Below, piece by piece: positions 5,915 to 32,245 of a stretch of DNA of 64,000 nt (position 1 is its first letter; every line of letters starts with the position of its first letter). The notes under the pieces were generated by a model. That model saw nothing but the letters and a program-made list of their open reading frames with translations, was not told where the DNA came from and made no database searches. This DNA comes from Paenibacillus sp. BIC5C1 (lineage in GTDB: Bacteria > Bacillota > Bacilli > Paenibacillales > Paenibacillaceae), in NCBI RefSeq assembly GCF_032399705.1, contig NZ_CP135922.1, forward strand, positions 1,550,001 through 1,614,000, in the 5' to 3' direction. Position numbers and translations under genes: made by a program.

Positions 5915-6583
5915 ATGTATACCAATGATAAAACGCAAGAAGAGTATAAACTGGAGAACCATAGGAACTTGAACAGAGAGCTGATGCAGCACGAGGTGAT
6001 AACTCCAAGTATTTTGTACTATGGCACACCGGTATTGCTGCTGAGCACCTTAAATGAAGATGGAACGACAAACCTGTCTCCTCTTTCTTCATCATGGGCA
6101 CTGGGTGACTGCCTGGTACTTGGAGTCGGTATTCAGGGCAAAGCCTTTGAGAACTTGAGTCGTCATCCCGAATGTGTGATTAATCTGCCGGATGCATCCA
6201 TGTGGGAGCAGGTTGAGGGACTGGGGCGTTATACCGGAATATATCCCGTTCCGGGGGAGAAAAGGATGATGGGGTTTGAGTTTTGTGATGATAAATTTGC
6301 CATCTCTGGGCTGACACCCCAAAGTTCAATTCGAGTTGAGCCGGATAAAATAGCGGAGTGTCCGCTCCAGATTGAAGCCGCGGTACAACACATTCGTATT
6401 CCCGAACATACACCATTCATGGCGATTGTGGAAGTAAAGGCGTTGAAGGTACATGTACATACCCGCCTGATATCAGGTTTGAACAAGATTAACCCGGAGA
6501 AGTGGAATCCTTTAATTTATAATTTCCGACATTATTATGGACTTGGAGAAAGGCATGGGGAGAGTTTTCGGGCAGAGAAGTGA
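5915..6583 (+). CDS. flavin reductase-like (FMN-binding split barrel) protein
   Basis: 222 residues from the ATG at 5915, which has GGAGGA eight bases upstream; an ATG at 5879 lacks a site. The flavin-reductase-like fold shows in YYGTPVLLLSTLNEDGTTNLSP, SSWALGDCLVLGVG and FENLSRHPECVINL, the usual FMN-binding segments. Members reduce or bind flavin, often for partner oxygenases, but the substrate cannot be read from sequence. It lies divergent from the ArsR-type gene and is followed by a weak terminator. Confidence 0.85.
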   Translation: MYTNDKTQEEYKLENHRNLNRELMQHEVITPSILYYGTPVLLLSTLNEDGTTNLSPLSSSWALGDCLVLGVGIQGKAFENLSRHPECVINLPDASMWEQVEGLGRYTGIYPVPGEKRMMGFEFCDDKFAISGLTPQSSIRVEPDKIAECPLQIEAAVQHIRIPEHTPFMAIVEVKALKVHVHTRLISGLNKINPEKWNPLIYNFRHYYGLGERHGESFRAEK

Positions 6584-6634
6584 TGTATATGGTCTGTATA
6601 GCATAGACAACCAATAAGTGATCCAGAATATATG

Positions 6635-6668
6635 AAGTGGTGCCGGTTGGGGTGCCGCTTCTTTCTAT
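6635..6668 (+). terminator. probable terminator after the flavin reductase
   Basis: 10-bp stem with three G-U pairs (6635-6644 with 6651-6660) followed by CTTTCTAT. Confidence 0.5.
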
Positions 6669-17933: not shown

Positions 17934-19028
17934 ATGATGTCGGCACTTCTCAAGACGGGTAGTCTGAAAATGAAGATCATCTGGGCGGTTGTCCTGATTA
18001 TGATGTGTCTGGCTCCACTCATTTCCACGGAGTTCCGGCTTAGTTTGTTGGCGAAATTCCTGGCCCTGGCCATTCTGGCGATCGGTCTGGATCTGATCTG
18101 GGGATATGGAGGAGTGCTTAGTCTGGGGCATGGCGTATTCTTCGGACTTGGTGGGTACGCCATGGCGATGTATCTGAAGCTGCAGGCGAGCGGTACAACA
18201 CTTCCAGACTTTATGGGATGGAGTGGTCTTAGCGGTCTGCCGTGGTTCTGGGAACCATTCAGGTCATTCCCGATGGCACTATTGCTGGGCATTGCTCTTC
18301 CGGCATTGCTGGCCTTTGCTCTGGGGTGGTTCACGTTCCGTAACCGGATCACCGGTGTGTATTTTACAATTCTGACCCAAGCATTAGTCCTTATTACAGT
18401 AACGTTATTTGTGGGCAAACAGGAATGGACGGGAGGGACTAACGGTATAACGGGATATAACGCAATCTTTGGTTTTACCCTTCATTCGGCAGGGACAACG
18501 ATTGCTCTTTACTATATAACGCTTGCTGTTCTGGTGATTGCCTATCTGCTGTGTCGCCGGGTTGTGAACAGCAGGTTCGGTCAGGTGCTTGAAGCTGCGC
18601 GGGATGGGGAGAATCGGGTTCGCTTTCTAGGCTATGACCCGGCAGGGTTCAAAACGCTGGCCTTTGCCCTTTCCGGAGCGCTGGCGGGAATCGCTGGTAT
18701 GTTATTTGTGCTCCAGGTAGGGATCATCTCGCCTTCCATGATGGGAATCGTGCCTTCAATTGAAATGGTGTTATGGGTTGCCTTGGGCGGTCGTGGAACG
18801 CTGATTGGTGCGGTAATCGGAGCGGTGGTGCTGAACGCAGCCAAAACGGGCATCAGTGAAGCTTATCCCGAAGGTTGGTTGTTTGTCATTGGTGGGCTCT
18901 TTGTAACCGTGGTCTTGTTCATGCCGAATGGGCTTGTTGGTGTATACCGTCATGTGGTGCGCTTGCTGAAACGGAGAGGAGAGGTTGTGCATGTTCCAGT
19001 CAGTCAGGAAAAACCAAAAGTCTACTGA
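17934..19028 (+). CDS. urtC: urea ABC transporter permease UrtC
   Basis: 364 residues. LivM-type permease with about ten hydrophobic segments (LAILAIGLDLIWGYGGVLSL, GHGVFFGLGGYAMAMYL, GISEAYPEGWLFVIGG). It follows urtB by 18 bases with a GGGGG site. Its end overlaps urtD by 38 bases. Confidence 0.95.
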   Translation: MMSALLKTGSLKMKIIWAVVLIMMCLAPLISTEFRLSLLAKFLALAILAIGLDLIWGYGGVLSLGHGVFFGLGGYAMAMYLKLQASGTTLPDFMGWSGLSGLPWFWEPFRSFPMALLLGIALPALLAFALGWFTFRNRITGVYFTILTQALVLITVTLFVGKQEWTGGTNGITGYNAIFGFTLHSAGTTIALYYITLAVLVIAYLLCRRVVNSRFGQVLEAARDGENRVRFLGYDPAGFKTLAFALSGALAGIAGMLFVLQVGIISPSMMGIVPSIEMVLWVALGGRGTLIGAVIGAVVLNAAKTGISEAYPEGWLFVIGGLFVTVVLFMPNGLVGVYRHVVRLLKRRGEVVHVPVSQEKPKVY

Positions 19029-19800
19029 CGTTCCGGTAGTCCTGGTCGCCGACGACATTACGGTGGCATTTGGCGGTTTTGTTGCGGTCAAAGGCATGAA
19101 TCTGAAGCTGCATGAACATGATCTGCATTTTCTGATCGGCCCCAATGGTGCGGGGAAAACAACGATGCTGGATGTGATTTGCGGCAAAACCAAGCCCTTG
19201 TCCGGTACAGTGAAGATGGCTGATGGCACGGATTTGACACGTCTGAAGGAGTACCAGATTGTTCGAAAAGGGATAGGGCGCAAGTTCCAGGCGCCATCCA
19301 TCTTTGCTGGTCTGACCGTGCAGGAGAACCTGACGCTGGCTGCGGAGACCCGTCGTTCTCCTTTACAGGCTCTAGGTATTCAACGGTATTCAAAAATAAG
19401 TCCGGCCATGGAGCGGATTACGCTCCAGATTGGTCTGCAGGATCGTGTGGATGCGCGTGCGGGGGCACTATCACATGGGGAAAAGCAGTGGCTTGAGATT
19501 GGCATGCTGCTCCTGCAGGAACCCCGTGTATTGCTGCTGGATGAGCCGGCAGCGGGGATGACGGACGAAGAAACACATAAGACGGGCAGACTACTGCAGG
19601 AGATTGCGCGAGAAAGGTCTGTTGTGGTAGTGGAGCATGATATGGAATTCGTTCGCGAGTATGCAGCCAAAGTGACGGTGATGCATGAAGGCAAGCTTCT
19701 AAAGGAAGGTACGATGGCGCAAGTGCAGGAAGATCCAAGAGTGGCTGAAGTGTACCTGGGCAAAAGGAGGGATGACCATGTTGTCGCTGCAACGAATTGA
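18991..19800 (+). CDS. urtD: urea ABC transporter ATP-binding protein UrtD
   Basis: 269 residues from the ATG at 18991; a TTG two codons earlier is less well spaced from GAGGAGAGG. Walker A is GPNGAGKTT, the signature region is LSHGEKQWLEIGMLL and Walker B is LLLDEPAAGMT. The LSHGEKQ signature in place of LSGGQ is characteristic of UrtD. It powers urea uptake with UrtE. Confidence 0.95.
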   Translation: MFQSVRKNQKSTDVPVVLVADDITVAFGGFVAVKGMNLKLHEHDLHFLIGPNGAGKTTMLDVICGKTKPLSGTVKMADGTDLTRLKEYQIVRKGIGRKFQAPSIFAGLTVQENLTLAAETRRSPLQALGIQRYSKISPAMERITLQIGLQDRVDARAGALSHGEKQWLEIGMLLLQEPRVLLLDEPAAGMTDEETHKTGRLLQEIARERSVVVVEHDMEFVREYAAKVTVMHEGKLLKEGTMAQVQEDPRVAEVYLGKRRDDHVVAATN

Positions 19801-20473
19801 GTCCGGTTATGGGGAAAGCAATGTGCTGCGCGGTGTGAATCTGGATGTCGAGCCTGGTCAGGTGGTATGCCTGATGGGGCGTAATGGTGTGGGGAAAACC
19901 ACCTTAATGAAGACGTTGATGGGCCTTCTTAAAACGCGCAAAGGAAGTATTCAGTGGAAAGGTCAGGAATTATCCACCCACGATCCGGCCAAGCGGGCCA
20001 GGTCGGGGATTGGATATGTGCCACAGGGTCGAGAAATCTTCCCCCAGCTAACAGTGAAGGAAAATCTGCTACTGGGTCTGGAGACAAGTGCAGTGGGGGA
20101 AAAGACGTTCCCCGAGGATGTGCTGGCGATGTTTCCGGTGCTTGCCACGATGTATGGGCGGCAGGGTGGTGATCTGAGTGGCGGGCAGCAACAGCAGTTG
20201 GCATTTGCCCGCGCGCTGGCTTCACGGCCTGGACTATTGCTTCTGGATGAGCCGACAGAAGGCATTCAGCCTTCTATCGTAGAGGATATCCGGCAGGTCA
20301 TTTTGAAAATTAAGGAAAAGGGTGAAATCTCCGTATTGCTGGTGGAACAAAGTATTGATTTTGTTCGCGGTGCTGCAGATTATATCTATGTAATGGACAA
20401 AGGGGCGATTGCACTGCAAGGAACACCGCGAGAGCTGGATATGTCGCAGTTTGAGCACCATCTGTCTGTGTAG
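19778..20473 (+). CDS. urtE: urea ABC transporter ATP-binding protein UrtE
   Basis: 231 residues from the ATG at 19778, six bases after GGAGGG. Walker A is GRNGVGKTT, the signature is LSGGQQQQLAFARAL and Walker B is LLLLDEPTEGIQ. It overlaps urtD by 23 bases and ends the operon. The converging PAS gene ends 26 bases further on. Confidence 0.95.
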   Translation: MLSLQRIESGYGESNVLRGVNLDVEPGQVVCLMGRNGVGKTTLMKTLMGLLKTRKGSIQWKGQELSTHDPAKRARSGIGYVPQGREIFPQLTVKENLLLGLETSAVGEKTFPEDVLAMFPVLATMYGRQGGDLSGGQQQQLAFARALASRPGLLLLDEPTEGIQPSIVEDIRQVILKIKEKGEISVLLVEQSIDFVRGAADYIYVMDKGAIALQGTPRELDMSQFEHHLSV

Positions 20474-20498
20474 TTAAGGATCTTGGTGTAGGGTCAGT

Positions 20499-21152
20499 TC
20501 AGGGACGCTTGTCCAGAATGTTGGAGTACTTTGGATAGAGTCTTCGGATGCAATCTGGGCAGATATCATGGGTAAATTCGGCATGAGTGTGCTTCTCCAA
20601 ATAACTCTCAACAGAGTTCCAACTGTCCTGTTCATCCTTGATTTGTTTGCAGACAGCGCAGATGGGAAGTAGTCCACGCAAAGTACGCACTTCAGACAGG
20701 GCCTTCTTCAATTGGCGTTCTGTCTGTTTCTGTTCGGTAACATCCGTGTGTGCAATCAATGCGAGATCAGACAGCAGGGATGGGGCGGCCTGAATCAATG
20801 GGGTGAGTTCCAGTCGGAACCACCGCTGTTCGTTGTGGACAGTTTGGACGGAGATGTCGTATGTATAACTGTCTTTAAAAGGTGCGGTCATGCTTTTTAA
20901 CTCCTGAACGATCTTTGTATTCTTTGCTTTCTCCTCGCATGATGCCCACTCCTCTACAAGATGGAGGTAATGGGGTGGTTTAGATGCTGTTCTGGAGGGG
21001 CCTGTTATGCTTGGTTTGGGAAGCAGCTGCCCGAGTCCGTGTTGCCAAGCGGTGTTGCAGCTTCGGATGATCCAGTTGTGGTCAACGATGATAAGCTGGT
21101 GCTGTATGGACTGGAACGATAATCTCTCCAGATCGGATATTAAGTATCTCAT
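20499..21152 (-). CDS. PAS-domain protein with C-terminal Cys-rich motif
   Basis: 217 residues. Residues ~10-140 form a PAS fold (HQLIIVDHNWIIRSCNTAW, then LALIAHTDVTEQKQTE), followed by a short coiled linker and a C-terminal CxxC pair (LPICAVCKQIKD with ICPDCIRRLYP) that could bind zinc. This tail is known at the end of PAS and response-regulator proteins; its function is not settled. There is no kinase, cyclase or DNA-binding output. It lies between urtE and the small helix-turn-helix gene, on the opposite strand to urt. Confidence 0.75.
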   Translation of the reverse strand: MRYLISDLERLSFQSIQHQLIIVDHNWIIRSCNTAWQHGLGQLLPKPSITGPSRTASKPPHYLHLVEEWASCEEKAKNTKIVQELKSMTAPFKDSYTYDISVQTVHNEQRWFRLELTPLIQAAPSLLSDLALIAHTDVTEQKQTERQLKKALSEVRTLRGLLPICAVCKQIKDEQDSWNSVESYLEKHTHAEFTHDICPDCIRRLYPKYSNILDKRP

Positions 21153-21179
21153 GAAATGAGCTCCTCCTTGGCAGAAATC

Positions 21180-21383
21180 TTATCTTAAATCATCAGGTAT
21201 TTCCAAAATGTCAGCGACCTGGTTCCTGAACCGGGTTGCTTTGCGTGTGCCGTGAATGAGATTGGACAGGCGGTATGGCGGAATGTCATACTGTTCACAA
21301 AATGTCTTTTGGTCGACCTGGAGTTCGGTTAGACGTCGTTTAATGGCCCATCCGAAAGGAGTCACAGGTTTCTTTTTGTTCAA
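21180..21383 (-). CDS. small HTH-type DNA-binding protein
   Basis: 67 residues, TTG start after GAGGGGTGA. The sequence FGWAIKRRLTELQVDQKTFC and PPYRLSNLIHGTRKATR read as a Cro-like helix-turn-helix filling almost the whole protein. It is 27 bases upstream of the PAS gene on the same strand and probably co-transcribed. Resembles phage-type regulators; targets unknown. Confidence 0.65.
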   Translation of the reverse strand: MNKKKPVTPFGWAIKRRLTELQVDQKTFCEQYDIPPYRLSNLIHGTRKATRFRNQVADILEIPDDLR

Positions 21384-21570
21384 AAGGGTTCACCCCTCGT
21401 TGGAATGTAGTGTTCAGCTGGTTATTCTCGGTGTAAAATATATAGATATGCGAGCTGTATGTTTCATTATATACGTATTTGCGTCATCTAACAATTAAAA
21501 AAGACGGAAATAAGTGTATTTTAATATGTTAAATGGCGTAAATGCGTTAAATAGACAAAATAATTGACAT

Positions 21571-21609
21571 AAAAAACACGCCAACAATGGGGTTGCGGCG
21601 TGTTTTTTA
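21571..21609. terminator. bidirectional terminator below the second ureF
   Basis: AAAAAACACGCCAAC pairs with the GTTGCGGCGTGTTTTTT arm; T runs on both strands. Confidence 0.8.
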
Positions 21610-21656
21610 TATTTTTACAGTGTGAGGAGGCGGGTTAGGGATGGAAAAGGGCTAGA

Positions 21657-22358
21657 TTAGGCTCTATAGGCGTGAAGCCCTGCTCCAAGCATGTGAAAGC
21701 TTGGGAACGACGTTTTCATGGACATTGAGGTTGGTTGTACCAGTCCATCGGCAGCGGTGGCGCTGACGGTATGCCATTCATGCTCCAGATCTGCGGCCAG
21801 GCGAACCAGCAGGTCCTGGATTGTATCGATATGAAGAGGAATCACTTTGGAGGCTTCGGTTATGCAGGCACTCATGGCTGAATGCAGATAACCAAGGACC
21901 GCCTCCTCGACAGGGATTTCGAGGTGGTGGTTAATCCAGGCGTGAACGGTGGAGAGGCAGCCGACGGATTCATACTTAGCCAGGGTTTGTTCGAGGTGGC
22001 TAAAATCAATCCAGGGGTGGAGTGCACGAGCCAGTTTAATCAGTCGTTTGCCCATTGTGGAGGCGTGTTCTCTAAGATTAACTGGTGTCCGCTGGACGTG
22101 GACGAGCTTGTCGATGAGTGCTGTACGCCATGCGTCATTATGATCTGCGGCGGTGTATATGCCTTTAATCGCCATGCCTTCCAGACGCGCGATGCTGGGG
22201 TGCAATTGGCAGCGCATGAATGATTCGAGATCTTCGGCGTTACGAATGGTACCTTCAGCGATATGGGCATCCATTCCGAAGGAATGAGTGAAGCCTCCAA
22301 CCTGGATAGAGGAATCAAGCAGTTTGACGTAATCGAGCAGCTTATTCCCACGGTTCAC
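21657..22358 (-). CDS. UreF-like protein, orphan paralogue
   Basis: 233 residues from the GTG at 22358, nine bases after AGGAGG. It follows UreF through the main fold (DYVKLLDSSIQVGGFTHSFG, VHVQRTPVNLREHASTMGKR, LARALHPWIDFSH) but lacks the conserved C-terminal MRHESLPARLF tail; the end reads FHMLGAGLHAYRA instead. In UreF that tail contacts UreD. It is more than 6 kb from the urease operon and stands alone. A perfect GlnR/TnrA box lies 28 bases upstream. Function may be changed or lost. Confidence 0.85.
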   Translation of the reverse strand: MNRGNKLLDYVKLLDSSIQVGGFTHSFGMDAHIAEGTIRNAEDLESFMRCQLHPSIARLEGMAIKGIYTAADHNDAWRTALIDKLVHVQRTPVNLREHASTMGKRLIKLARALHPWIDFSHLEQTLAKYESVGCLSTVHAWINHHLEIPVEEAVLGYLHSAMSACITEASKVIPLHIDTIQDLLVRLAADLEHEWHTVSATAADGLVQPTSMSMKTSFPSFHMLGAGLHAYRA

Positions 22359-22385
22359 AATCTTTCGCCTCCTACGTTCGTTAAA

Positions 22386-22402
22386 TGTTATGTTAAATAA
22401 CA
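22386..22402 (-). promoter_or_regulatory. GlnR/TnrA-type box upstream of the second ureF
   Basis: TGTTATGTTAAATAACA, perfect match to TGTNA-N7-TNACA, 28 bp before the GTG start. Being this near, it would act by repression. Weaker 9/10 matches lie at 22450-22466 and 22523-22539. Confidence 0.55.
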
Positions 22403-22640
22403 TTTATACTCCTTTTTAGTTCGCTTTATGTTTGTAAATCCGAATTATATGATATATATATTCACATAAATATCCGCTTTTTGTCAACATATTCTTGTTT
22501 TTTAAATATTAAATCTATTTAATGTTATTTTATATAACTTAATTAGTTATGTTATGCTGAGGAGATGTAAAGGATGGCAATACAAATTAAGTAGAGTGAT
22601 CAGCCTAATTGGATATACAAAGGAGATCAAATTTAATCAT

Positions 22641-22706
22641 ATGCACTTCGTAGGAGAAAATGACGAGATTATACGATTTATGGAAGGAAAAATGCAGTTA
22701 AAATGA
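22641..22706 (+). CDS. possible 21-residue peptide
   Basis: ATG at 22641 after a distant AAAGGAG (13 bases away), ending at TGA 22706. The reading MHFVGENDEIIRFMEG is acidic and unrecognised. It lies in a 420-bp gap between the second ureF and tRNA-Leu that otherwise holds only box-like sites and the tRNA promoter. Chance is a fair explanation. Confidence 0.2.
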   Translation: MHFVGENDEIIRFMEGKMQLK

Positions 22707-22721
22707 TTTTAATAAAAATAC

Positions 22722-22750
22722 TTTACTTTTAAACATGAACCGGGTATAAT
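22722..22750 (+). promoter_or_regulatory. promoter of tRNA-Leu copy 2
   Basis: TTTACT (22722-22727), 17-bp spacer, TATAAT (22745-22750), 29 bp before the tRNA. Confidence 0.65.
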
Positions 22751-22778
22751 CAATTCTGTTGCCGATTATTTACGACAT

Positions 22779-22861
22779 GCGGTCGTGGTGGAATGGCAGA
22801 CACGCTATCTTGAGGGGGTAGTGGGTGTATACCCGTGGAGGTTCGAGTCCTCTCGACCGCA
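22779..22861 (+). tRNA. tRNA-Leu (GAG), copy 2
   Basis: 83 nt, identical to 9770-9852, anticodon GAG. It has its own promoter and terminator. Confidence 0.96.
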
Positions 22862-22878
22862 TCATAAGAATGATTAGG

Positions 22879-22912
22879 AAGAAGCTTCCCGTATGGGGAG
22901 CTTCTTTTTTTG
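22879..22912 (+). terminator. terminator after tRNA-Leu copy 2
   Basis: GAAGCTTCCC pairs with GGGGAGCTTC around GTAT, followed by a T run. Confidence 0.85.
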
Positions 22913-23013
22913 TGTTTTTTTACAATCAAGATGAGTCCAGACAAAAAAAAGGTCACCCGTTTCCCCTGAATGCATGCTCATTCTGTCTGCCGGGGTCGGA
23001 TGGCCTTCACTTG

Positions 23014-23490
23014 TTATTTAAGCAATTCTTTGATGTCCGCTTCAATTTTATCAGGTGTTGTTTTGGGAGCATACCGTTTCAGAACACGTCCGTTCTGGTC
23101 CACAAGAAATTTGGTAAAGTTCCATTTGATGGCTTTGGAGCCGAGTACGCCCGGTGCTTCTTTGGTAAGGTGTTGGAATAGAGGGTGAGCGCTTGAACCA
23201 TTCACATCGATTTTCTCGAACATCGGGAAGCTGACACCATAGTTCATCTGACAGAACTCGGCAATATCATCAGAGGAGCCTTTTTCCTGTGCAAACTGGT
23301 TGCTTGGAAAACCAAGAACTTCAAATGGGGAGTCTTTGAACTTGTCCTGAAGCTCTTGCAGACCTTTAAATTGAGGTGTGAGGCCGCATTGGCTTGCTGT
23401 ATTCACGATAAGCAGTACTTTGTCACGATAGTTGGACATTTCAACTTCCTGACCGCGAAGGGTGTTTACTTTGTAGTCGTAGACTGACAT
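23014..23490 (-). CDS. glutathione peroxidase-family peroxidase
   Basis: 158 residues from the ATG at 23490, which follows GGAGG; an upstream ATG is less well placed. The catalytic Cys35 (NTASQCG), Gln65 (FPSNQF) and Trp123-Asn124 (KWNFTKF) form the peroxidase site, with cysteine in place of selenocysteine. Cys80 is the probable resolving residue, so it most likely runs on thioredoxin. It reduces lipid and organic peroxides. An inverted repeat covers the promoter -35 region. Confidence 0.92.
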   Translation of the reverse strand: MSVYDYKVNTLRGQEVEMSNYRDKVLLIVNTASQCGLTPQFKGLQELQDKFKDSPFEVLGFPSNQFAQEKGSSDDIAEFCQMNYGVSFPMFEKIDVNGSSAHPLFQHLTKEAPGVLGSKAIKWNFTKFLVDQNGRVLKRYAPKTTPDKIEADIKELLK

Positions 23491-23525
23491 GAAAATCGCC
23501 TCCATTTCATATTCTTCTTTCTTCT

Positions 23526-23554
23526 ATTATATTGATTGCAATTAAATATTGCAA
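23526..23554 (-). promoter_or_regulatory. promoter and overlapping operator of the peroxidase gene
   Basis: Minus strand TTGCAA (23554-23549), exactly 17 bp, TATAAT (23531-23526). A perfect inverted repeat TTGCAAT-TAAAT-ATTGCAA (23536-23554) overlaps the -35 and spacer, the usual place for a repressor. The AT-rich repeat is MarR/OhrR-like in style, but the regulator is not known. The rest of the gap up to the riboswitch (about 23880) shows nothing else. Confidence 0.6.
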
Positions 23555-23879
23555 AATTAATATTGCTTTTTTAACTCAATTTGAACCTGTCGTGTATGAT
23601 CTGTGACTGATTTAATGCCTAATTTTCGCTAAAGAGAGAATTAGAGAGCTTTGATGAGATGGGTAGAGAATAGAGTCGTTGTAAGCGCTATTATTGATGG
23701 GAAATGGCAAAAATCCGTCGATTCGGTGATCTGCGCAGACTTTACACCAATATGGCACGGGTGTATGATTCATATCGTAATTCCAATTTAAATTAAATTT
23801 TACATGAAAAACGAAACAAACGATAATATCGCTCTGATTAATGATTATAAAAGAACGATGTTTTAATCGCTGAGTTTCC

Positions 23880-24040
23880 ATTCATTCATGGGTGGGAAAC
23901 GGGGGAACCAACAGGATGAACTGTCCAGGACAGTAGGCATCCATGGGGTGAATTTTCCGGTGACAGCCGGAAATAGGGCGACTCTCGCGCCCGAATCCGT
24001 CAGCTAACCTCGTAAGCGTTAAAGGGAGAGGCAACAAGCC
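23880..24040 (+). promoter_or_regulatory. c-di-AMP riboswitch (ydaO/yuaA type)
   Basis: The conserved ydaO blocks are present in order: GGTGGGAAACGGGGGAACCA (from 23891), GGGGTGAAT (from about 23944), a GGGCGACTCTCGCGCCC stem (from about 23977), and CGAATCCGTCAGCTAACCTC (from 23992) with GTAAGCG and GGGAGAGGCA (to about 24035). This RNA binds cyclic di-AMP and in Bacilli usually turns off potassium-uptake or cell-wall genes when the ligand is high. A terminator at 24077-24121 forms the expression platform for the gene at 24151. Confidence 0.92.
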
Positions 24041-24076
24041 GTACGCTGGTTCATAGTGTCTTTTTGCTATGGATTA

Positions 24077-24121
24077 TTGAAGAAGCGTCCGGGAGGCCTT
24101 GGTCCCCCACGCTTCTTTTTT
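24077..24121 (+). terminator. riboswitch-controlled terminator
   Basis: AGAAGCGT (24081-24088) pairs with ACGCTTCT (24109-24116) with an inner G/C-rich helix, followed by a T run, 30 bases before the start of the next gene. Confidence 0.8.
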
Positions 24122-24150
24122 GTTGTCTTTTCACGCCAAGGGAGGAACGA

Positions 24151-24549
24151 ATGATGGATAAAGAGATGATCTTAGTGACTGCTCCAAATGAAGCAGGACG
24201 TAAATTTATCAAATTGCTGATGTACAAAAAAATGCCGTTTGCCGTTCTGACCAACAGTGCAGGGGAAGAGCGCAGGCTCCGGAGAATCGGTGTGGAGCAT
24301 GTTATTCGCATGAACACGGCTGCAGCTCAGAAATGGTTTTTGCCGCAAGGCAGTGTCGGCAATGTTTTTATTTTTGAAAATAGCCTAAACCTGACCTGTC
24401 GATATTTGCAGATTTGCCGCTCCTGGACGTCCAAGTCCTTGTGTGTCATTACGGAACAAAGCCATCCCAAAGGGATCTATCGGGGAATGGGCGCAGACCG
24501 TATTGTATATTCCTTGAATGGGGAAGTTGGGTTTCTGCTTAATGGCTAG
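24151..24549 (+). CDS. Rossmann-like protein under c-di-AMP riboswitch, RCK_N-like
   Basis: 132 residues from the ATG at 24151 after GGGAGG. The first half reads as a beta-alpha-beta start (MILVTAPNEAGRKFIKLLMY) without the Gly-rich GxGxxG loop. The second half (SLCVITEQSHPKGIYRGMGA, then DRIVYSLNGEVG) resembles the end of the RCK_N domain in the KtrA potassium-channel subunit (NELHGKVLEKIGADRVVF). There is no RCK_C domain and no channel gene nearby. Not a known family to me. The riboswitch context supports a link to potassium or cell-wall homeostasis. Confidence 0.7.
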   Translation: MMDKEMILVTAPNEAGRKFIKLLMYKKMPFAVLTNSAGEERRLRRIGVEHVIRMNTAAAQKWFLPQGSVGNVFIFENSLNLTCRYLQICRSWTSKSLCVITEQSHPKGIYRGMGADRIVYSLNGEVGFLLNG

Positions 24550-24624
24550 TGGTTAGTACTATTCCTGTGATTGATCCAGTGTCAGCTGCCTGTTATAATT
24601 GAAATCATAAATAAATGGAATCTT

Positions 24625-24664
24625 GAGGAGACTCATGCATGATGGTGGGTCTTCTTTTTTATGG
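24625..24664 (+). terminator. probable terminator after the riboswitch gene
   Basis: GAGGAGACTCAT pairs imperfectly with ATGGTGGGTCTTC, followed by a T run. Confidence 0.55.
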
Positions 24665-24710
24665 TTTGGGAAATAGGGAAATTTCCTGTGGCTAACGAGG
24701 AGGAATAGGC

Positions 24711-25403
24711 GTGCCGGATGTACGTGGAATACAATGGTTATTCTTTGATGTGGGGGATACGCTCGTGGACGAATGGGAGCCGGTAGATGATATTATCGGT
24801 CAATTCGTTCGTGAAGCTTGTGCGCTTGGTTATCAGGTGGAGATGCAGACGGTGCGAGATATATTTGCCGCCTCCTACCGAAATTACGAGCAATGGCCGA
24901 TGAAATTGGCTATTCGTACCCTTATCAGCGACGAGGGGCACCGGGAACAGATACAGGAGAAGCTGAAGTTCCGCAAAGAGCTTGAGCGCCCCTTCGCGTC
25001 AGCCGACGCTGTTCTCCAGACGTTGTCGCAGCACTATAAGATTGGTATCATTGCCAATCAGAGCCCAGGGACGGAAAATCGGCTGGATAGCTACGGCTTG
25101 CGCAAGTATGTGGATGTGCTGGCCTGTTCGGCTGAAGAAGGAGTGTCCAAGCCTGATCCTGAATTGTATGCTGTAGCATTGAAACAGGCTGGATGTAAAC
25201 CCGAGGAAGCGGTCATGATCGGCGACAGGATTGATAATGATATTATTCCGGCTAAGAAGCTGGGTATGCACACGATCCGGATTTTGCAGGGTTATGGCAG
25301 GTTCCAGCCGGAGCTTGCAGATGCAGAGCGTCCAGACTGGACTGTTGAATCGCTGGAGGAACTCCTTCCATTGTTAATGGTAACTCAAAGTTCAGATAAC
25401 TAA
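24711..25403 (+). CDS. HAD superfamily hydrolase
   Basis: 230 residues from a GTG after GGAGG. HAD motif I is FFDVGDTLVD, motif II is GIIANQS, motif III Lys in VSKPDPELY and motif IV is VMIGDRIDNDI. Such a layout is that of a YjjG/phosphoglycolate phosphatase-like enzyme with a helical cap (about residues 20-90). Substrate unknown. It stands alone and its terminator also serves the converging mntH. Confidence 0.9.
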   Translation: MPDVRGIQWLFFDVGDTLVDEWEPVDDIIGQFVREACALGYQVEMQTVRDIFAASYRNYEQWPMKLAIRTLISDEGHREQIQEKLKFRKELERPFASADAVLQTLSQHYKIGIIANQSPGTENRLDSYGLRKYVDVLACSAEEGVSKPDPELYAVALKQAGCKPEEAVMIGDRIDNDIIPAKKLGMHTIRILQGYGRFQPELADAERPDWTVESLEELLPLLMVTQSSDN

Positions 25404-25459
25404 ATAAGAGCAGTATGTAAGATCTAATAGGTATGGATCAGGTGGCTGCTCAAACATAT

Positions 25460-25511
25460 AAAAGGCTGATCATCTCAAGGTAGACGTTACTTGAGTTGAT
25501 CAGCCTTTTTG
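25460..25511. terminator. bidirectional terminator between HAD gene and mntH
   Basis: AAAAGGCTGATCA and TGATCAGCCTTTTT pair, with an inner CTCAAG/CTTGAG helix. Confidence 0.85.
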
Positions 25512-25544
25512 AGTTAGACAAAATTCCGTGTAGTTCCGTTTAAA

Positions 25545-26894
25545 CTAGAATAACAGAATGGTCTGGATAATCAGATACACATTCAGGACAACGATAACTC
25601 CAGCAATGATCCAGGAGATGATTTTGAGCCACAGCTTGTTGGCAAAAGCCCCCATGCTTTTTTTGTCACTCGTAAACATCACCAGTGGAATGACGGCAAA
25701 GGGTAGCTGTAAAGACAGCACAACCTGGCTCAGAATCAGCAGTTCCTCTGTTCCGTGCTCTCCGGCAATGGCTGTTACGATAACTGCCGGAATGATTGCA
25801 ATCAGACGTGTAACCAGTCGACGAAGCCATGCTGGGATACGAATGTTCAGGAAGCCTTCCATTACAATCTGTCCGGACAACGTGCCGGTGAGTGTAGAGT
25901 TCTGGCCGGAAGCCAGCAGGGCTACACCGAAGAGGATGCTGGCGATGGTAGTACCCAGCAGAGGTGTCAACAGGTGGTAAGCATCCGTAATTTCCGCGAC
26001 CTGAGTCATACCTGCACTATGGAACACGGCAGCAGACACAATCAGAATAGCAGCATTGATGAAAAGGGCCAGCGTTAAAGCAATGGTTGAATCCATGGTG
26101 GAATACCGGATCGCTTCTTTTTTGCCCTGAGGTGTCTGTTCAATCTGACGTGTCTGCACGATGGAAGAGTGCAGATACAGATTATGGGGCATCACGGTAG
26201 CACCGATAATCCCGATAGCGATGTAGAGCATGGCTGGATTTTGCAAAATCTCGGCACTGGGTACAAAACCATGCATGACGCCGCCCATATCCGGTTTAGC
26301 GAGAAACAGGTCAATCCCGAAGCAGAGGGCGATGGTAGCCATCAGCACAATAACGAGCGATTCCAATGCTCGGAAGCCTTTATTTTGCAGCAAAAGAATG
26401 ACGAGTACATCGACAGCAGTAATTATGACGCCGTATAACATGGGAATGTTGAACAGCAGCTTGAGCGCGATGGCCGAACCAATAACCTCGGCAAGGTCGG
26501 TGGCTGCAATCGCAAGCTCACACAAGATCCATAACACCATAACCACAGGCATACTGAACCGTTCGCGGCAGGCTTGGGCCAAATCCCGTCCTGTGACAAT
26601 CCCGAGCTTGCCAGCGAGAGACTGTAATACTACAGCCATTAGATTTGAAATCAGAATAACGGACAATAACGTGTAACCGAATTGTGAACCACCGGCAATA
26701 TCCGTTGCCCAGTTCCCAGGATCCATATATCCAACGGCAACGAGGTAACCCGGTCCAACAAAAGCAAGGAACTTTTTCCACCAAGCAGCGTTCTGAGGCA
26801 CCTTCATGGAGCTGTGGGCTTCCCCGAGAGATGGGGCCATACCCGCAGCCAATGGTTCATTTGAAGGAGCGTTGAACGGATTTTTTTTACTCAT
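25545..26894 (-). CDS. mntH: Nramp-family divalent metal transporter MntH
   Basis: 449 residues with about eleven membrane segments. The Nramp signature [15 protein letters not shown] lies near residues 57-70 and the metal-binding [10 protein letters not shown] lies near 233. It imports manganese (and iron) with protons. About 50 residues before the first segment are polar. I see no clear MntR box upstream, so regulation is open. The 390-bp gap to ohr is AT-rich and holds no other gene. Confidence 0.95.
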
Positions 26895-27233
26895 AATATA
26901 ATCACCCGACTTTGAAGTATTGATATTCTATATGAAGAGGAACGGTGTCATTCCTTTGATTACATTTGAAGAGTTAAATCAAAATCAAAAGCGTAATTAA
27001 ACTACTTTTCATATGTCTAAACGTTTATGTTTATACTTACATTGTACTCCTTCAATTATTTTTGTCTAGTGCAACTTTTGTGTATGAGGACAAAATTTAC
27101 CGGAGGATGAATTGTGCCTTAGTATATTACCCAACCTTAAATAAATTACCTGTATTCCTTTCCCAATGCATGAAAAAGATAAAGATGTAAAACCTGAATA
27201 AGGATCAACAACGTTTCAAAATGAGCCAGAAGT

Positions 27234-27248
27234 TTAAATTGAATTGTA
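27234..27248 (+). promoter_or_regulatory. weak OhrR-like site upstream of ohr
   Basis: TTAAATTGAATTGTA matches 12 of 15 bases of the Bacillus OhrR palindrome TACAATTAAATTGTA. It is 38 bases before the ohr start. AT-richness makes chance matches common. Confidence 0.3.
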
Positions 27249-27285
27249 GGCAGTAAAAAACTTAAAGGTGAAGGAGAGATTCTTA

Positions 27286-27705
27286 ATGGAAGCTTTATAT
27301 ACAGCAACAGCGACAGTTAAAGGTGGACGTACAGGTTCGGTAGCTTCTTCGGATGGAGTGCTCAAGCATGATCTGAAAATGCCCAAAGAACTTGGAGGCT
27401 CTGGTGGTGAAGGAACCAATCCTGAGCAGCTCTTTGCAGCGGGGTATGGTGCATGTTATGAAAGTGCTCTTGCCAATGTGGCACGCAAAGCGGGCGTGAA
27501 ATTGGAGAATGTGGTGGTCACCAGTAATGTATCCATCGGCAAAGATCCGGCAGATGATGGTTTCCAACTGTCTGTACGTTTGGATGTGAGTATGCCTGGC
27601 GTCGATCACAGTCAAGCAGAAGACCTTGCTCGTAAGGCACATGATTTCTGTCCTTATTCCAAAGCAACACGCGGCAATATTGATGTGGTACTTAATGTAG
27701 TTTAA
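27286..27705 (+). CDS. organic hydroperoxide resistance protein Ohr
   Basis: 139 residues, usual Ohr length, from the ATG at 27286 after AAGGAGAG. The two catalytic cysteines are Cys57 (AAGYGACYES) and Cys122 (FCPYSKATRGN), with the OsmC/Ohr fold around them. It reduces organic peroxides with dihydrolipoyl carriers. Single gene with its own terminator. Confidence 0.95.
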   Translation: MEALYTATATVKGGRTGSVASSDGVLKHDLKMPKELGGSGGEGTNPEQLFAAGYGACYESALANVARKAGVKLENVVVTSNVSIGKDPADDGFQLSVRLDVSMPGVDHSQAEDLARKAHDFCPYSKATRGNIDVVLNVV

Positions 27706-27774
27706 GACCTGACTCGTAGGAGTAAAGGGAACATATAGAGCAGGGTATCTCAGGATACCTGATGTTCGAGTACA

Positions 27775-27808
27775 AGACCCTGCTGGCCTTCGGCAGGGTT
27801 TTGTTTTT
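27775..27808 (+). terminator. terminator after ohr
   Basis: ACCCTGC/GCAGGGT stem with a GC-rich loop, followed by TTTTG and more T. Confidence 0.75.
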
Positions 27809-27909
27809 ATAATACAGTTGAGATGCAGGAGATTGCATGTTGAACAGCGTACTATTTTACATAATCTACTCTTGCTTGAAGTCATACATTCGAATAAGGG
27901 GGAACGACA

Positions 27910-28155
27910 ATGAGTATTGAAGAGATGATAGAACGGCGATTTGTATGTACCAAGTGCAGGGGTACGGATTGTAACATTAAGGAAGTGTCCATGTCAGGAG
28001 CGGGACTTAGCAAAATGTTTGATATTCAGCATAATCATTATCTCTTCGTTGCCTGTTCTTCCTGTGGATATGTTGAAGTATTCGATCCGGATGTGTTGAA
28101 AGGGAAAAAACAGGGTCAGGTGGGTACCATTCTTGATATTCTATTTGGTGGGTAA
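27910..28155 (+). CDS. zinc-ribbon protein
   Basis: 81 residues. A four-Cys zinc ribbon is formed by CTKCRGTDC and ACSSCGY, like small nucleic-acid-binding Zn-ribbon proteins of Firmicutes. Downstream is an aspartate-rich, GKKQGQ tail. Ribosome site GGGGGAAC. Function unknown; binding of nucleic acid is a family-based guess. Confidence 0.8.
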   Translation: MSIEEMIERRFVCTKCRGTDCNIKEVSMSGAGLSKMFDIQHNHYLFVACSSCGYVEVFDPDVLKGKKQGQVGTILDILFGG

Positions 28156-28253
28156 ATGTGCGTGAGTTGACATCGAACTAAAATTTCTTTAATATGACTT
28201 AGTACTGAGAAGTGTCATTGCTTGAACCAAATTTGAATTGACAGGTGATATCC

Positions 28254-28532
28254 ATGTCTTATAGACCGCGTATTGCAAAATTGGAAGTAGCTAGTAAAAA
28301 TGAAAAAGACGGATTGTATGAATTTACAATGAAATTGGTAGATGGTACACAGTGCCGTGTATTCTACTCCCATTCCCCAGAATGGAAGATGACCAATATC
28401 AGCCGTCTACAGAAAACGCCTTGTCCAGTATGCCGCAAAGATTTCATTTGCAAATGCATGGACCAGTGGGCTGGTGACCTGCACCAACAAATGATCGATG
28501 ACCAATGGATGGAAAAGGCAATTGCCGAGTAA
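28254..28532 (+). CDS. small hypothetical protein with four cysteines
   Basis: 92 residues from the ATG at 28254 after AGGTGAT. CPVCRKDFICKC near residues 58-69 could be a metal site. The N-terminal half reads as beta strands, KLEVASKNEKDGLYEFTMKL. No known family. Single gene with its own terminator, near other small zinc proteins. Confidence 0.7.
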   Translation: MSYRPRIAKLEVASKNEKDGLYEFTMKLVDGTQCRVFYSHSPEWKMTNISRLQKTPCPVCRKDFICKCMDQWAGDLHQQMIDDQWMEKAIAE

Positions 28533-28548
28533 TTGCCAAAACAGATAC

Positions 28549-28580
28549 GAGCGTGGGCGTAGAGCCTGCGCTCTTTTTCT
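28549..28580 (+). terminator. terminator after the 92-residue gene
   Basis: GAGCGTGGGC/GCCTGCGCTC stem with a GTAGA loop and a T run. Confidence 0.8.
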
Positions 28581-28676
28581 ATTTTCCGTTACACTTAAAT
28601 AAAATGTAAAAAAAGCGACCACGATGAATCAAAACGGGTAAGTTACTCTAATAGCACACATGAGGAGGCCGCGATT

Positions 28677-29099
28677 ATGATAGCAAACCAAATGGATCAG
28701 CATCAGGGACACCCGATTGTGCTTGTGGACGGAGTCTGTCATTTCTGCCAAGGATTAACGAAGTGGATAATCAAGCGTGACCCTGAGGGGAAATTTCATT
28801 TTGCATCACTTCAATCGGATGTAGCGAAAAAATTGCTGGAGAAGGGCAATTTGTCCACGGACAGCATGGACACTTTTGTACTCATTGAGGATGGAAAATA
28901 TTATACTCGTTCAACCGCAGCGCTGCGTCTGGCCAAAGGTTTGAAATTCCCCTATCCATTATTGTACGTGTTGATTATTGTACCGAGATTTATTCGAAAT
29001 GCCATATATAACATGGTAGCTCGCAATCGATATCGATGGTTCGGTAAAGATGAAGTGTGTATGCTGCCCACACCTGACATTAAGGATCGATTCCTTTAA
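28677..29099 (+). CDS. DCC-family (YuxK-like) thiol protein
   Basis: 140 residues. The DCC signature VLVDGVCHFCQGLTKWI (CxxC pattern) sits near residues 16-32 and the DUF393 body follows (HFASLQSDVAKKLLE, STAALRLAKGLKFPYPLLYV). Predicted thiol-disulfide oxidoreductase-like fold. Ribosome site GGAGG before the ATG. Substrate unknown. Confidence 0.88.
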   Translation: MIANQMDQHQGHPIVLVDGVCHFCQGLTKWIIKRDPEGKFHFASLQSDVAKKLLEKGNLSTDSMDTFVLIEDGKYYTRSTAALRLAKGLKFPYPLLYVLIIVPRFIRNAIYNMVARNRYRWFGKDEVCMLPTPDIKDRFL

Positions 29100-29198
29100 A
29101 AGGCTAAAGTGTGACAAATTGTATCGGCAACGATTGATTAATAACGGAAATAATTGGGTAATGAGTACGGATCAATTCTTTTTTGGGAGGCAAATAAC

Positions 29199-30062
29199 TT
29201 GAAGAAGTGGACTACATTAATTATTGGGGCATTATTAGCAGTAAGCATGACAGCTTGCAGTAGCGATGCAGATAACAGTACAGCAACGCCGCCAGCTGGC
29301 AACGAAACGTCTAACGAGGGTAATACAACTGCGGAGCAGGAGACAAAGACCCCTACATTGGACGAGTTAATTGAGAAAACAAATGCAGCAACTAAGGACA
29401 TGAAAAGTTTCACTACGGAAGCCAATATCGATCAAAAATTGAAACTGGTAGCTGGCGAGCAGTCCCAGGATCAACAGGTGAAAACATCGCTGAAGATGGA
29501 TATCATTAAAGATCCAATGATGATCTATCAGGAGATGAAAATGGAAATGTCCGGACAGGAAGCGCAAAATGTGAAGCAGTACATCACTTCGGATAAGATT
29601 TATTCGCAGGTGGGAGATCAATGGGTCAAAATTCCTGATGAACAAACGAAACCACTGATTGAGCAAATGCAGGCAAGCATGAAACCGGAAGGTGAGCTGG
29701 ATCAATTTAAAAAGATTGCCGAAGACACCAAAATTACGGAAGAAGGCGATAACTATGTCATTAACGCTGACGTATCCGGAGATAACGTGAAGGAACTGGC
29801 CAAAGCAGTCATGGAGCAAAACGGATCGGATGCCCAAACTCAGGCGATGCTTGATCAAATGAATATTACCAGCATGAAAATGAAATATATGATCAACAAA
29901 GAAACCTATCTGCCTGCAAGTACGGATGTCAATATGGTTATGGATATGGAGCAGGAGGGACAGAAAATCTCGATGGACATGAAAATGACCAGCACGTTCT
30001 CTAACCATAACGGTGTGAAAGAGATTAAGATCCCGCAAGAGGCATTGGATAGTGCGAAATAA
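29199..30062 (+). CDS. secreted lipoprotein, DUF6612-like
   Basis: 287 residues from a TTG at 29199, eight bases after GGGAGG. Lipoprotein signal peptide ends at lipobox MTAC (Cys20), then a Ser/Thr/Pro linker. The mature part (about 55-287) resembles the LolA/LppX-like DUF6612 family of Firmicutes, rich in Met and Lys with repeated KMEMS/MKMK-type strands. It probably binds a lipid-like ligand at the membrane surface. Function unknown. Followed by a long gap without a clear gene. Confidence 0.82.
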   Translation: MKKWTTLIIGALLAVSMTACSSDADNSTATPPAGNETSNEGNTTAEQETKTPTLDELIEKTNAATKDMKSFTTEANIDQKLKLVAGEQSQDQQVKTSLKMDIIKDPMMIYQEMKMEMSGQEAQNVKQYITSDKIYSQVGDQWVKIPDEQTKPLIEQMQASMKPEGELDQFKKIAEDTKITEEGDNYVINADVSGDNVKELAKAVMEQNGSDAQTQAMLDQMNITSMKMKYMINKETYLPASTDVNMVMDMEQEGQKISMDMKMTSTFSNHNGVKEIKIPQEALDSAK

Positions 30063-30829
30063 GAAGGCAAGGATAGCGGGAGAGACTATTGAATGAGAAG
30101 TTAATCTGATAAAAGTTGCTTAAGATGTGTATCTTCTGAAGAAGGCACTTCTGATATGAATTTATGTGAACCAACAGGTTCGGCGGATTCAATCAGGGGT
30201 GTTTTTCTTTTTTTTGTATGCGTTTTGTGGTCAGAGTATTAACAAACGGGTGAGCAGTAGTGGCTTCCGCATGGGGAGTGATAAGCCTATAGCGTACCGG
30301 GCTACAAAGGACCTTGTCTCGAAGGTGCACAGGACTGGGAATGAGTGAGTGAGGTCTCTTACGGAGTGAGTGTTCATGCGTCATAGGCTCTAGCAGATTG
30401 CCTCAAGAGATCGCATCACTTCCGTTAACCGAATCCATTCGTGTCCTCAAATATGACTGACAGAAGCTCTCTCCCTTGGTCATATAGGGTCCGGTTGTGG
30501 ACCACAAGGGTGATATCCTGACTGAATCCTCATCCTTGACTTAGGAATCAAATCAAACGTCTTAACACACAGAAATGGTCAGAGATAGTCTCCATTGCCA
30601 TGCTTGCGTCGTGCCATCCAATTCCTACACTGGAAACGGAGCAATCTTCATTACAGCTACCTCAGCTACTTGGTTGGAAGTAGGCTCATAGCTACACTGT
30701 TGTTTGCTTCTGCTGAACTTTTTCCCTTGGCGAAAGCTCTTGGATTTTCTACAATAGTCATGTAAGCGAATCGATTTAGGGTTGGTAGGAAGCTGGAGAA
30801 AGTCTATTTCAGGGAAGAAGGTTGGAGAA
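30063..30829. other. ~770-bp stretch without a convincing gene
   Basis: No reading frame with a ribosome site and plausible composition is seen. It has a more even base composition than the intergenic DNA around it and several hairpins, for example GGTCC-GGTTGT-GGACC (about 30489-30504) and CTACTT-GGTTGG-AAGTAG (about 30663-30680). It may be a decayed mobile element, or a structured RNA; the evidence is not enough to choose. Short minus-strand frames here lack starts. Confidence 0.45.
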
Positions 30830-31213
30830 ATGATTGAATATGCACATATACACCACGTGAGTCTGGCTGTACGTGATTTGGAGGTTGCGAAGAAATTCTA
30901 TTCGGGTTTGCTCCGTATGCAGGAGATTGAACGTCCGCCGTTCAACTCCACAGGCACCTGGTATGCCCTTGGTAGTCAGCAGCTTCATCTATTACAGCAT
31001 CCGCAGGGACATACGCTTCGTGAGGCTGGCATCGATACTACAGATGGACATTTTGCGATCTGGGTGAAGAGTTACAAGGAGACATTGGATTGGCTGGAAC
31101 AGCAGGGAATTGAATATGAGGCAAGACCAGATAGTATTGCCGGGTTCGCACAAATTTTTGTGCTTGATCCTGACCGCAATATTATTGAGTTTGATGCACC
31201 TTATCATTCTTAA
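30830..31213 (+). CDS. VOC-family (glyoxalase-like) protein
   Basis: 127 residues from the ATG at 30830. The VOC fold shows as IHHVSLAVRDLEVAKKFYSG (first beta-alpha unit), LHLLQHPQGHTLREA, HFAIWVKSY and FVLDPDRNIIEFDAP, with metal ligands His8 or 9 and Glu in IIEFD. Members isomerise or dioxygenate small molecules, or bind antibiotics such as fosfomycin. Function here cannot be chosen. Confidence 0.88.
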   Translation: MIEYAHIHHVSLAVRDLEVAKKFYSGLLRMQEIERPPFNSTGTWYALGSQQLHLLQHPQGHTLREAGIDTTDGHFAIWVKSYKETLDWLEQQGIEYEARPDSIAGFAQIFVLDPDRNIIEFDAPYHS

Positions 31214-31334
31214 TTTGATTGGATTTTTGAAATAGGAGTAAAGAGATACTAGAAGAAAGAGTTTATTTTATAATTCTTAAATACCATTAATACTCTAAAT
31301 TGAGGGTTATTTACAAAATGGTACTTATGAAAAT

Positions 31335-31384
31335 AGCCTTCCATATACTGCATGTTCATGCGGGTATTGGATGGCTTTTTTTCG
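31335..31384 (+). repeat. repeated hairpin, copy 1 (terminator of the VOC gene)
   Basis: An imperfect palindrome with a T run. Its 35-base core (TCCATATACTGCATG, then TTCATGCGGGTATTGGATGG) differs at only five positions from 32253-32287. It can serve as the terminator of the VOC gene. Confidence 0.6.
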
Positions 31385-31505
31385 AGGAAGGGAATCAGAA
31401 TAAAAAGTCTAATAAATATACTTTGCTAAAATACATTAGGATATATTAGATAAATTATCATAGGAAAGAGGGGATGCGTTACATCCCCTCTGATTACGTA
31501 TGGGT

Positions 31506-31844
31506 TTATCGTACAGTGACTGTATAGAGTACAGTATCACCGTTAGGTAAATAACCGACTACTGTACAAACCCCAGGTGACAAACCAATTATTAATCCTT
31601 GTTGATTTAAATAAATGCCGCCATAGTCTCCACTAATCCAAAAGTTGGAGCCAGCAACTGTAATGCTCTCGCCAACTCTCAAACTAATAGGAACGGAAAT
31701 CTGATCTGCAAGAGTTATTACATTGGACGTTTCTGCAGAAGTAGTACTAGGACTTGGTGTAGTAGTACTAGCTGCGAAAGATGTAGAACCAACAGTGAAG
31801 CACGCAACGACAGTTAATAGACCAGTAATAAGTTTCTTTTTCAT
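31506..31844 (-). CDS. small secreted protein with Ig-like (BIG2-type) tail
   Basis: 112 residues from the ATG at 31844, nine bases after GAGAGG. A Sec signal peptide ends at about residue 25 (SFAAS), then a Ser/Thr/Pro linker. The C-terminal ~60 residues (LRVGESITVAGSNFW, GLIIGLSPGVCTVVGYLPNG) read as a bacterial Ig-like BIG2 fold. Probably a surface or extracellular binding domain; it may not be retained on the wall as no sorting motif or lipobox is present. It has its own promoter. Confidence 0.72.
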   Translation of the reverse strand: MKKKLITGLLTVVACFTVGSTSFAASTTTPSPSTTSAETSNVITLADQISVPISLRVGESITVAGSNFWISGDYGGIYLNQQGLIIGLSPGVCTVVGYLPNGDTVLYTVTVR

Positions 31845-31878
31845 CGTTATCATCCTCTCATATTTGGAATACAACTCT

Positions 31879-31907
31879 ATTATATAGAAAATATATCCAA
31901 TAGTAAA
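31879..31907 (-). promoter_or_regulatory. promoter of the small secreted protein
   Basis: Minus strand TTTACT (31907-31902), 17-bp spacer, TATAAT (31884-31879). The rest of the gap to the Tad operon is AT-rich and holds the second hairpin repeat. Confidence 0.65.
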
Positions 31908-32245
31908 CTATATTCGGAAAATAAAGTATTTTTTTGGATGAATATTATGTGAACCAAGGATTAATTTTGAGATACTCAATTTTGTGAAACTGCTAATAAT
32001 AATTTATTTTTTTCTCTGCAAATTGATAAAAATATTAAATATAGTGGTGTATCGTTACGAAAGGGATAAGCGATAGAATGTACAGTGACAAACATTGCGT
32101 AAACATGGAACTGATGCAACAAATGAGGTATATTACCTGAATAACAACTATAAGGAGTAAGAGGATTAGTGGAGCAGAATAAATCCCTTGCTCCTCCAGA
32201 AATTGTATGCTATATTATCCATACATTCATAGCACGTGACGGAAG

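Follow-up and report, generated by a model that had tools for sequence, protein, structure and literature searches.

The window, the whole 64,000-nucleotide stretch of DNA analyzed here, comprises positions 1550001 to 1614000 of a 7.08-Mb Paenibacillus genome (taichungensis/pabuli group) assembled as a single contig. Positions 23858 to 24033 on its plus strand hold an aptamer of the c-di-AMP riboswitch class (RF00379, ydaO/yuaA), which matched the full Rfam model (positions 1 to 134 of 134) at 95 bits (gathering score, 38). This result confirms an earlier sequence-only reading, which had recognized a full ydaO-type riboswitch, a terminator, and a 132-residue gene at this site. No non-standard base pair was marked in the aptamer alignment, and its score is the highest among the five RF00379 matches in the genome. 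The aptamer core was conserved across 12 aligned leader sequences (the window plus 11 of the 27 relatives retrieved), and the leader (23858 to 24130) folded better than 200 of 200 shuffled sequences (z = -3.48). The predicted intrinsic terminator of the riboswitch (24079 to 24121, plus strand) consists of a stem at 24079 to 24118 and a T run. It was missing from the output of a simple terminator scan, and 6 of 200 shuffled sequences folded as well as the stem; the outer stem and the T run were conserved in all 12 aligned sequences. Upstream, a consensus scan gave a candidate promoter, TTTACA-17-GATAAT (23799 to 23827, plus strand), named by its match to consensus only (10 of 12 positions). Its GATAAT is kept in 10 of the 12 aligned sequences, and the scanned region contained 9 promoter-like sites versus 3.0 expected.

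The gene that follows (24151 to 24549, plus strand, 132 codons) is preceded by a ribosome-binding site, GGGAGG at 24140 to 24145 on the same strand, that is invariant in the alignment of 12. A listing of open reading frames gives the gene a longer TTG-start frame of 161 amino acids. A hairpin with a T run (24622 to 24660, plus strand), found by scan and conserved in every one of the 10 sequences aligned there (the window plus 9 of the 27 relatives), closes the unit. With riboswitch, terminator, gene, and closing hairpin all present, the locus forms a transcription unit containing one gene. Two further observations concern the window. An extended -10 promoter-like site, TTGATC-17-TATAAT, lies within 24571 to 24660, about 25 bases 5' of the closing hairpin, and is largely kept in the 10 aligned sequences; it perhaps belongs to a tiny RNA or to the leader of the HAD gene that comes next. 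Positions 14199 to 14494 matched the Rfam family 5_ureB_sRNA with 95.5 bits, perhaps merely reflecting similarity to urease gene coding sequence.

The encoded protein is identical to records of Paenibacillus taichungensis, P. pabuli, and P. xylanivorans. It had no match in Pfam (E value up to 10), NCBIfam, PDB, or PADLOC. Of 295 Paenibacillaceae genomes, 161 had a homolog in a single-query search, and a profile search detected the family in all 75 genomes of the genus (E values up to 1e-10). Some genomes of other taxonomic families also have it: across the class, matches occurred in 62 of 398 genomes at E values up to 1e-3, a count that takes in the Paenibacillaceae themselves and in which the weakest matches are unsure.

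The ancestry of the protein became apparent through its relatives. In an alignment of 42 members, 13 matched TrkA_N (PF02254, the RCK_N domain of KtrA and TrkA) at E values up to 1 (best, 4.5e-6), and there were weak matches to ADH_zinc_N in 12 members (best, 5e-4) and to DUF4218 in 8 (best, 0.005). A homolog 51% identical to the window protein (L070) scored 27.4 bits for TrkA_N, above the cutoff of 23.8, over model positions 1 to 114 of 116. Ten further homologs, chosen by hand, included L199 (23.9 bits), L201 (printed as 23.8), L205 (23.6), L200 (23.3), L198 (20.0), and L202 (12.8); the other four had no TrkA_N match. Besides L070, none of 20 proteins in other scans attained the cutoff. The domain match is full-length in two homologs over the cutoff and in several near it, whereas most of the homologs scanned fall short of the cutoff. 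We take the family to be divergent RCK_N because TrkA_N is the only family attained at cutoff among the homologs scanned, and we regard this assignment as quite likely. The ADH_zinc_N matches and the four nonmatching homologs led us to lower our estimate slightly, from very likely. Since the window protein has no family match and some homologs do match TrkA_N, RCK_N ancestry is supported through relatives and not by the window protein directly. The earlier suggestion of RCK_N likeness therefore stands by way of some homologs; its restriction to the C-terminal half does not, because matches at or near the Pfam cutoff span model positions 1 to 114 or 1 to 115 of 116.

Profile-profile comparison lent this assignment no support. 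With hhalign, the family scored 7.8% against eight KtrA RCK_N domains, compared with 8.1% for a KdpE receiver control and 0.16 to 0.46% for five other controls; the KtrA alignment was shallow (Neff 1.9), so the comparison is weak either way. Matches in PDB profile searches were weak and mixed. The best match of the 42-member alignment was SPy1043 (E value of 0.009 over 45 residues), which we took to be a HAD-type phosphatase from similar rows, followed by a designed protein (0.013), the TrkA chain TM1088B (0.022), and KtrA (YuaA; 0.49). When the alignment was centered on L070, TrkA domain chains accounted for three of the four PDB matches (best E value, 0.4).

The family shares a KtrA-like C-terminal motif, but it differs from KtrA and TrkA in several respects. 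As the sequence-only reading had noticed, the GxGxxG loop and the RCK_C domain are absent: the commonest form of the glycine loop is A-P-N-x-A-G, compared with G-x-G-x-x-G in KtrA, and 132 amino acids leave no room for RCK_C. In an alignment made by eye, asparagine (N35) stands at the position of the acidic residue (D) that follows strand 2 of KtrA. The family also has an invariant F-E-x-S...C motif of its own. Residues F75, E76, S78, C83, and G114 are invariant in all 42 members, and R84, R90, and W92 are nearly so. No ktrB gene lies near the window gene, and the linkage of the family is to kdpA, not ktrB. Two other identities were rejected. The family is not a KtrA fragment, as it has its own invariant residues and is present in 161 genomes, nor is it a piece of Usp-type KdpD, as it has no Usp or KdpD Pfam match and the KdpD N-terminal gene is separate. 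The gene name kdpZ, which we take to denote a gene of the Alicyclobacillus kdp region, was considered as a possible relative; no conclusion rests on that name, and a literature search for the word found no paper.

The linkage to kdp emerged from 40 homolog loci (L063 to L102) from 38 genomes, hand-picked for spread, 3 of them in the window's genus. kdpA started no more than 700 bp downstream of the gene in 30 of the 40, a count that, the loci being hand-picked, is not the share among all genomes. A c-di-AMP riboswitch ended within 250 bp upstream of the gene in 36 loci and within 1 kb in 38, and none was detected in the remaining two (L074 and L089); riboswitch positions for 20 genomes are among the matches listed, and absences there are less sure. 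Tandem riboswitches preceded the gene in 18 loci, the second one of L096 being below the cutoff, and L087 has an additional riboswitch between the gene and kdpA. A KdpF-like open reading frame was present in 29 of the 30 gaps between the gene and kdpA, and a hydrophobic frame of about 22 to 36 amino acids was seen by eye in 25 of the 27 gaps printed. Of 29 kdp-linked loci examined for it, all but L067 had the N-terminal gene of KdpD downstream, and 7 of the 29 had the C-terminal part of KdpD together with KdpE at high identity. To recognize KdpC, KdpD, and KdpE, we relied on similarity to the copies in the window genome, which had been named by eye. In four operons of the same genus (L157, L160, L161, and L162), the stretch retrieved contained no KdpD match; KdpD of genome G244 lies just beyond.

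Co-occurrence pointed in the same direction. Among 295 genomes, 151 had both the gene and KdpA, 10 the gene only, 64 KdpA only, and 70 neither (Fisher P value of 1e-19, which ignores kinship, so that relatedness inflates the significance). KdpA was scored as absent from twelve genomes whose matches were weak (E values of 1e-6 to 1e-3), none of which has the gene. The gene is also linked to kdp in another family (L121 and L122). Most simply, the ancestral place of the gene is first in a c-di-AMP-controlled kdp operon. Such an operon would have comprised one or more riboswitches, the gene, a membrane peptide of about 35 amino acids, kdpF, kdpA, kdpB, kdpC, and usually the KdpD N-terminal kinase gene.

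Several loci outside this sample showed variations on the arrangement. Tandem aptamers before the gene or kdp were also seen in L108, L109, L111, L125, and L137, and in L110 they precede an unrelated-looking gene. In L125 (6577 to 8121), tandem riboswitches are followed by a KimA-like frame of only 205 amino acids, a homolog split over two frames, and then kdpAB, a pattern that reflects either true decay or sequence errors. L126 (5087 to 8629), L127, and L136 each have two riboswitches, the second before a 127-residue homolog followed by kdpAB. The first precedes a 129-residue protein with a GxG loop in L126 and frames of 161 to 162 amino acids in L127 and L136; these loci possibly hold a paralog pair. 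In L128 (1605 to 5556) and L131 (5425 to 9380), where translations were read by eye, a distant homolog ends a riboswitch-led operon resembling a glycine betaine transporter.

A riboswitch of the same aptamer class heads the kdpFABC operon of Bacillus thuringiensis, as it heads kdp operons in the window's relatives. There, c-di-AMP promotes termination, and its fall under potassium limitation releases termination (PMC6488665). The first gene in B. thuringiensis is kdpF, whereas the Paenibacillaceae loci have the extra gene first and, in 18 of 40 cases, tandem aptamers; unlike the B. thuringiensis riboswitch, that of the window is followed by no transporter. The same study suggests that riboswitch and KdpDE control of kdp are mutually exclusive (PMC6488665). 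The two loci with no detected riboswitch, L074 and L089, agree with such exclusion. In contrast, L090, L091, L101, L121, and L122 combine a riboswitch close upstream with the KdpD C-terminal part and KdpE. L086 and L095 do so less clearly, with the riboswitch 730 to 925 bp away.

Gene order indicates how the window copy may have come to stand alone. Four genomes of the same genus carry kdpABC at the corresponding chromosomal place. G244, G269, and G294 read ureF, GPx, riboswitch, gene, kdpA, kdpB, kdpC, and an mntH-like gene; G286 shares this arrangement but has two additional genes before mntH. In G224, G229, and the window, ureF and GPx lead to the riboswitch(es) and the gene, after which come HAD and an mntH-like gene; G234 has two additional open reading frames after HAD, and G162 agrees with the window up to HAD. 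In G239, GPx is preceded by diverged ureF-like and response-regulator-like frames, and mntH directly follows the gene. The gene tree placed the window copy in a well-supported group (100/98) with the kdp-linked G191 and G150 and the G244 group. L085 was labeled stand-alone in that tree though kdpA follows it, which makes the label-change numbers (6 least forced, 14 fewest) approximate. Loss of kdpABC at this site is supported as a simpler reading than insertion, because kdp linkage predominates among the sampled wider-family loci and is also seen in a second family. In the window lineage, kdpABC would have been lost, the riboswitch and the gene would have stayed, and the HAD gene now stands in that place. 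Thus, what had been described as a new stand-alone protein is most simply explained as a remnant, the product of a gene that once headed a kdp operon.

The absence of kdpABC here raises the alternative that the riboswitch and gene are a decaying relic of the lost operon with no present function. Fragments like a decayed copy, seen by eye at the kdp locus of G194, would fit such a course. This explanation is disfavored and highly improbable: the median dN/dS of the stand-alone group was 0.019 (64 of 105 pairs of 15 sequences, with dS of 0.1 to 3), the aptamer, terminator, and ribosome-binding site are conserved, and the family is found in every genome of the genus searched. The stand-alone gene and its riboswitch are thus under strong selection.

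Ten of the 40 loci were unlinked to kdpA. Four of these ten are in genomes (G050, G026, G194, and G105) that have kdp elsewhere with its own riboswitch or riboswitches, giving gene and kdp locus pairs that are both led by c-di-AMP riboswitches (L076/L111, L079/L108, L080/L109, and L102/L112). Co-regulation is not general once gene and kdp are unlinked, because the separate kdp of the window genome has no detected c-di-AMP riboswitch nearby, and for G029 and G142 no riboswitch lies within 25 kb of the separate kdpA among the matches listed. Of the remaining unlinked genomes, G224 and G088 lack KdpA, and G162 has a second, kdp-linked copy (L065); the last of the ten loci is in G102, with no kdpA position among the matches listed. 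Gene-like fragments lie between tandem riboswitches and kdp in L111 (6072 to 6548) and L137 (about 5321 to 5470); G194, which carries the fragments at L111, has an intact riboswitch-led copy elsewhere (L076).

In the window genome, no potassium transporter gene was found next to the gene among the open reading frames of 18000 to 32000, in agreement with the sequence-only reading. The strain's kdp operon (L105) begins at C1:277336, 1.3 Mb from the gene, and includes the N- and C-terminal parts of KdpD as well as KdpE. The genome's two TrkH/KtrB genes are at 82925 and 5843909, compared with 1574151 for the window gene. Of the genome's other four c-di-AMP riboswitches, two lie ahead of NlpC/P60-like proteins, one ahead of a G5/3D-type protein, and one ahead of a LysM-3D-type protein; these names, read by eye from translations, suggest cell wall genes. 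By coordinates, none of the five riboswitches adjoins the kdp operon, the two KtrA-type genes, the two TrkH/KtrB genes, or a KimA-like gene named from reading. Therefore, the window gene is the only riboswitch-led gene in the genome for which we can see a potassium link. In L105 (about 6551 to 6640), a hydrophobic frame of 22 to 36 amino acids lies directly upstream of kdpF, as in most gaps. A second copy of the gene in the same genome (L103, 1501 to 1890; G000 C1:2956785) is 32% identical and has no detected c-di-AMP riboswitch.

One explanation for these patterns is that the protein is an accessory for Kdp only, acting in assembly or regulation of KdpFABC, with stand-alone copies serving the kdp operon in trans. 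The operon linkage, the co-occurrence with KdpA, and the presence of a distant kdp operon in the window genome all fit this explanation. However, the gene occurs without KdpA in ten genomes, nine of the genus plus G088. In none of them did a KdpD match exceed the cutoff (G224 has one subthreshold match), and in all five neighborhoods read (G025, G224, G229, G234, and G088) the gene is open and riboswitch-led. Dependence on Kdp only thus seems rather unlikely. Because these ten genomes keep the gene and the stand-alone group is under strong selection, the product has a use beyond Kdp, and Kdp cannot be its only target. A KimA-like gene was found in all ten genomes, and TrkH/KtrB in the three of them searched. 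The linked transporter is Kdp and, given the retention of the gene in genomes without KdpA, probably another one too; it is not specifically Ktr or Kim, which had been put forward for binding tests at the outset. The broader proposal, of a partner for a potassium transporter encoded elsewhere, held as far as the link is concerned, given the kdpA genes that follow the homologs and the kdp operon elsewhere in the genome.

Our best reading, inferred as to partner and mechanism and given about an even chance, is that the protein is an RCK_N-derived regulator of potassium uptake that acts in trans when c-di-AMP is low. c-di-AMP, higher when potassium is plentiful, would cause transcription to end in the leader (an OFF-type riboswitch). 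As potassium and c-di-AMP fall, the window gene would be expressed; by analogy with the B. thuringiensis kdp riboswitch, it would thus be on when potassium is short. The protein would be a divergent cytosolic RCK_N-like domain, RCK_C and the dinucleotide-binding signature having been lost, and would not be expected to bind dinucleotides in the classical way. It would most likely serve as a regulatory or assembly partner in trans, of KdpFABC where present and of another uptake system, with KtrAB and KimA as candidates, in species without Kdp. It may either promote or tune potassium uptake.

Regulation of Kdp by a soluble protein tied to c-di-AMP has a precedent in short KdpD, a KdpD/Usp serine kinase encoded with kdpFABC. 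Stimulated by c-di-AMP, short KdpD phosphorylates and inhibits KdpB (PMC11018627). Short KdpD differs from the present family in being a separate downstream gene, found in 28 of 29 kdp-linked loci, and the family has no Usp or KdpD Pfam match. Because of this inhibition of KdpB by short KdpD, a co-expressed second soluble regulator beside it is plausible. In the open-license literature we found no RCK_N-like protein in kdp operons.

KdpA, KtrB, and TrkH belong to one transporter superfamily, and KtrB and TrkH are gated by RCK rings; to our knowledge, Kdp has no RCK ring. It is conceivable, if distinctly unlikely, that the protein is a dedicated RCK-type subunit of KdpFABC, made only at low c-di-AMP, that gates or couples KdpA, with stand-alone copies having moved to another transporter of the superfamily, such as KtrB.

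Alternatively, the protein might sense something else, such as redox state through its invariant cysteine or a nucleotide, or feed back on c-di-AMP metabolism, and be merely co-regulated with potassium uptake. Family-specific invariant residues that leave out the RCK_N dinucleotide signature, the replacement of the KtrA acidic residue by N35, and the distant homologs at the end of glycine betaine transporter-like operons would accord with this proposal. The main linkage, however, is to kdp, and no c-di-AMP enzyme gene was noticed on reading through the loci. We consider such a role unlikely.

A role in potassium uptake remains our preferred reading, and the riboswitch-led gene points to an unstudied helper protein of that process. 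A survey in the B. thuringiensis study (PMC6488665, section 11) counted 12 species with riboswitch-led kdp operons, most of them members of the Bacillus cereus group; here, c-di-AMP riboswitches, often in tandem, precede kdp operons across the Paenibacillaceae. To the c-di-AMP potassium circuit, the analysis adds an uncharacterized protein, common to all searched genomes of the genus, with Kdp as a testable partner. If this reading is true, Kdp pumps can be accompanied by an RCK-derived partner, and a riboswitch and its regulator can outlive the pump they came with.
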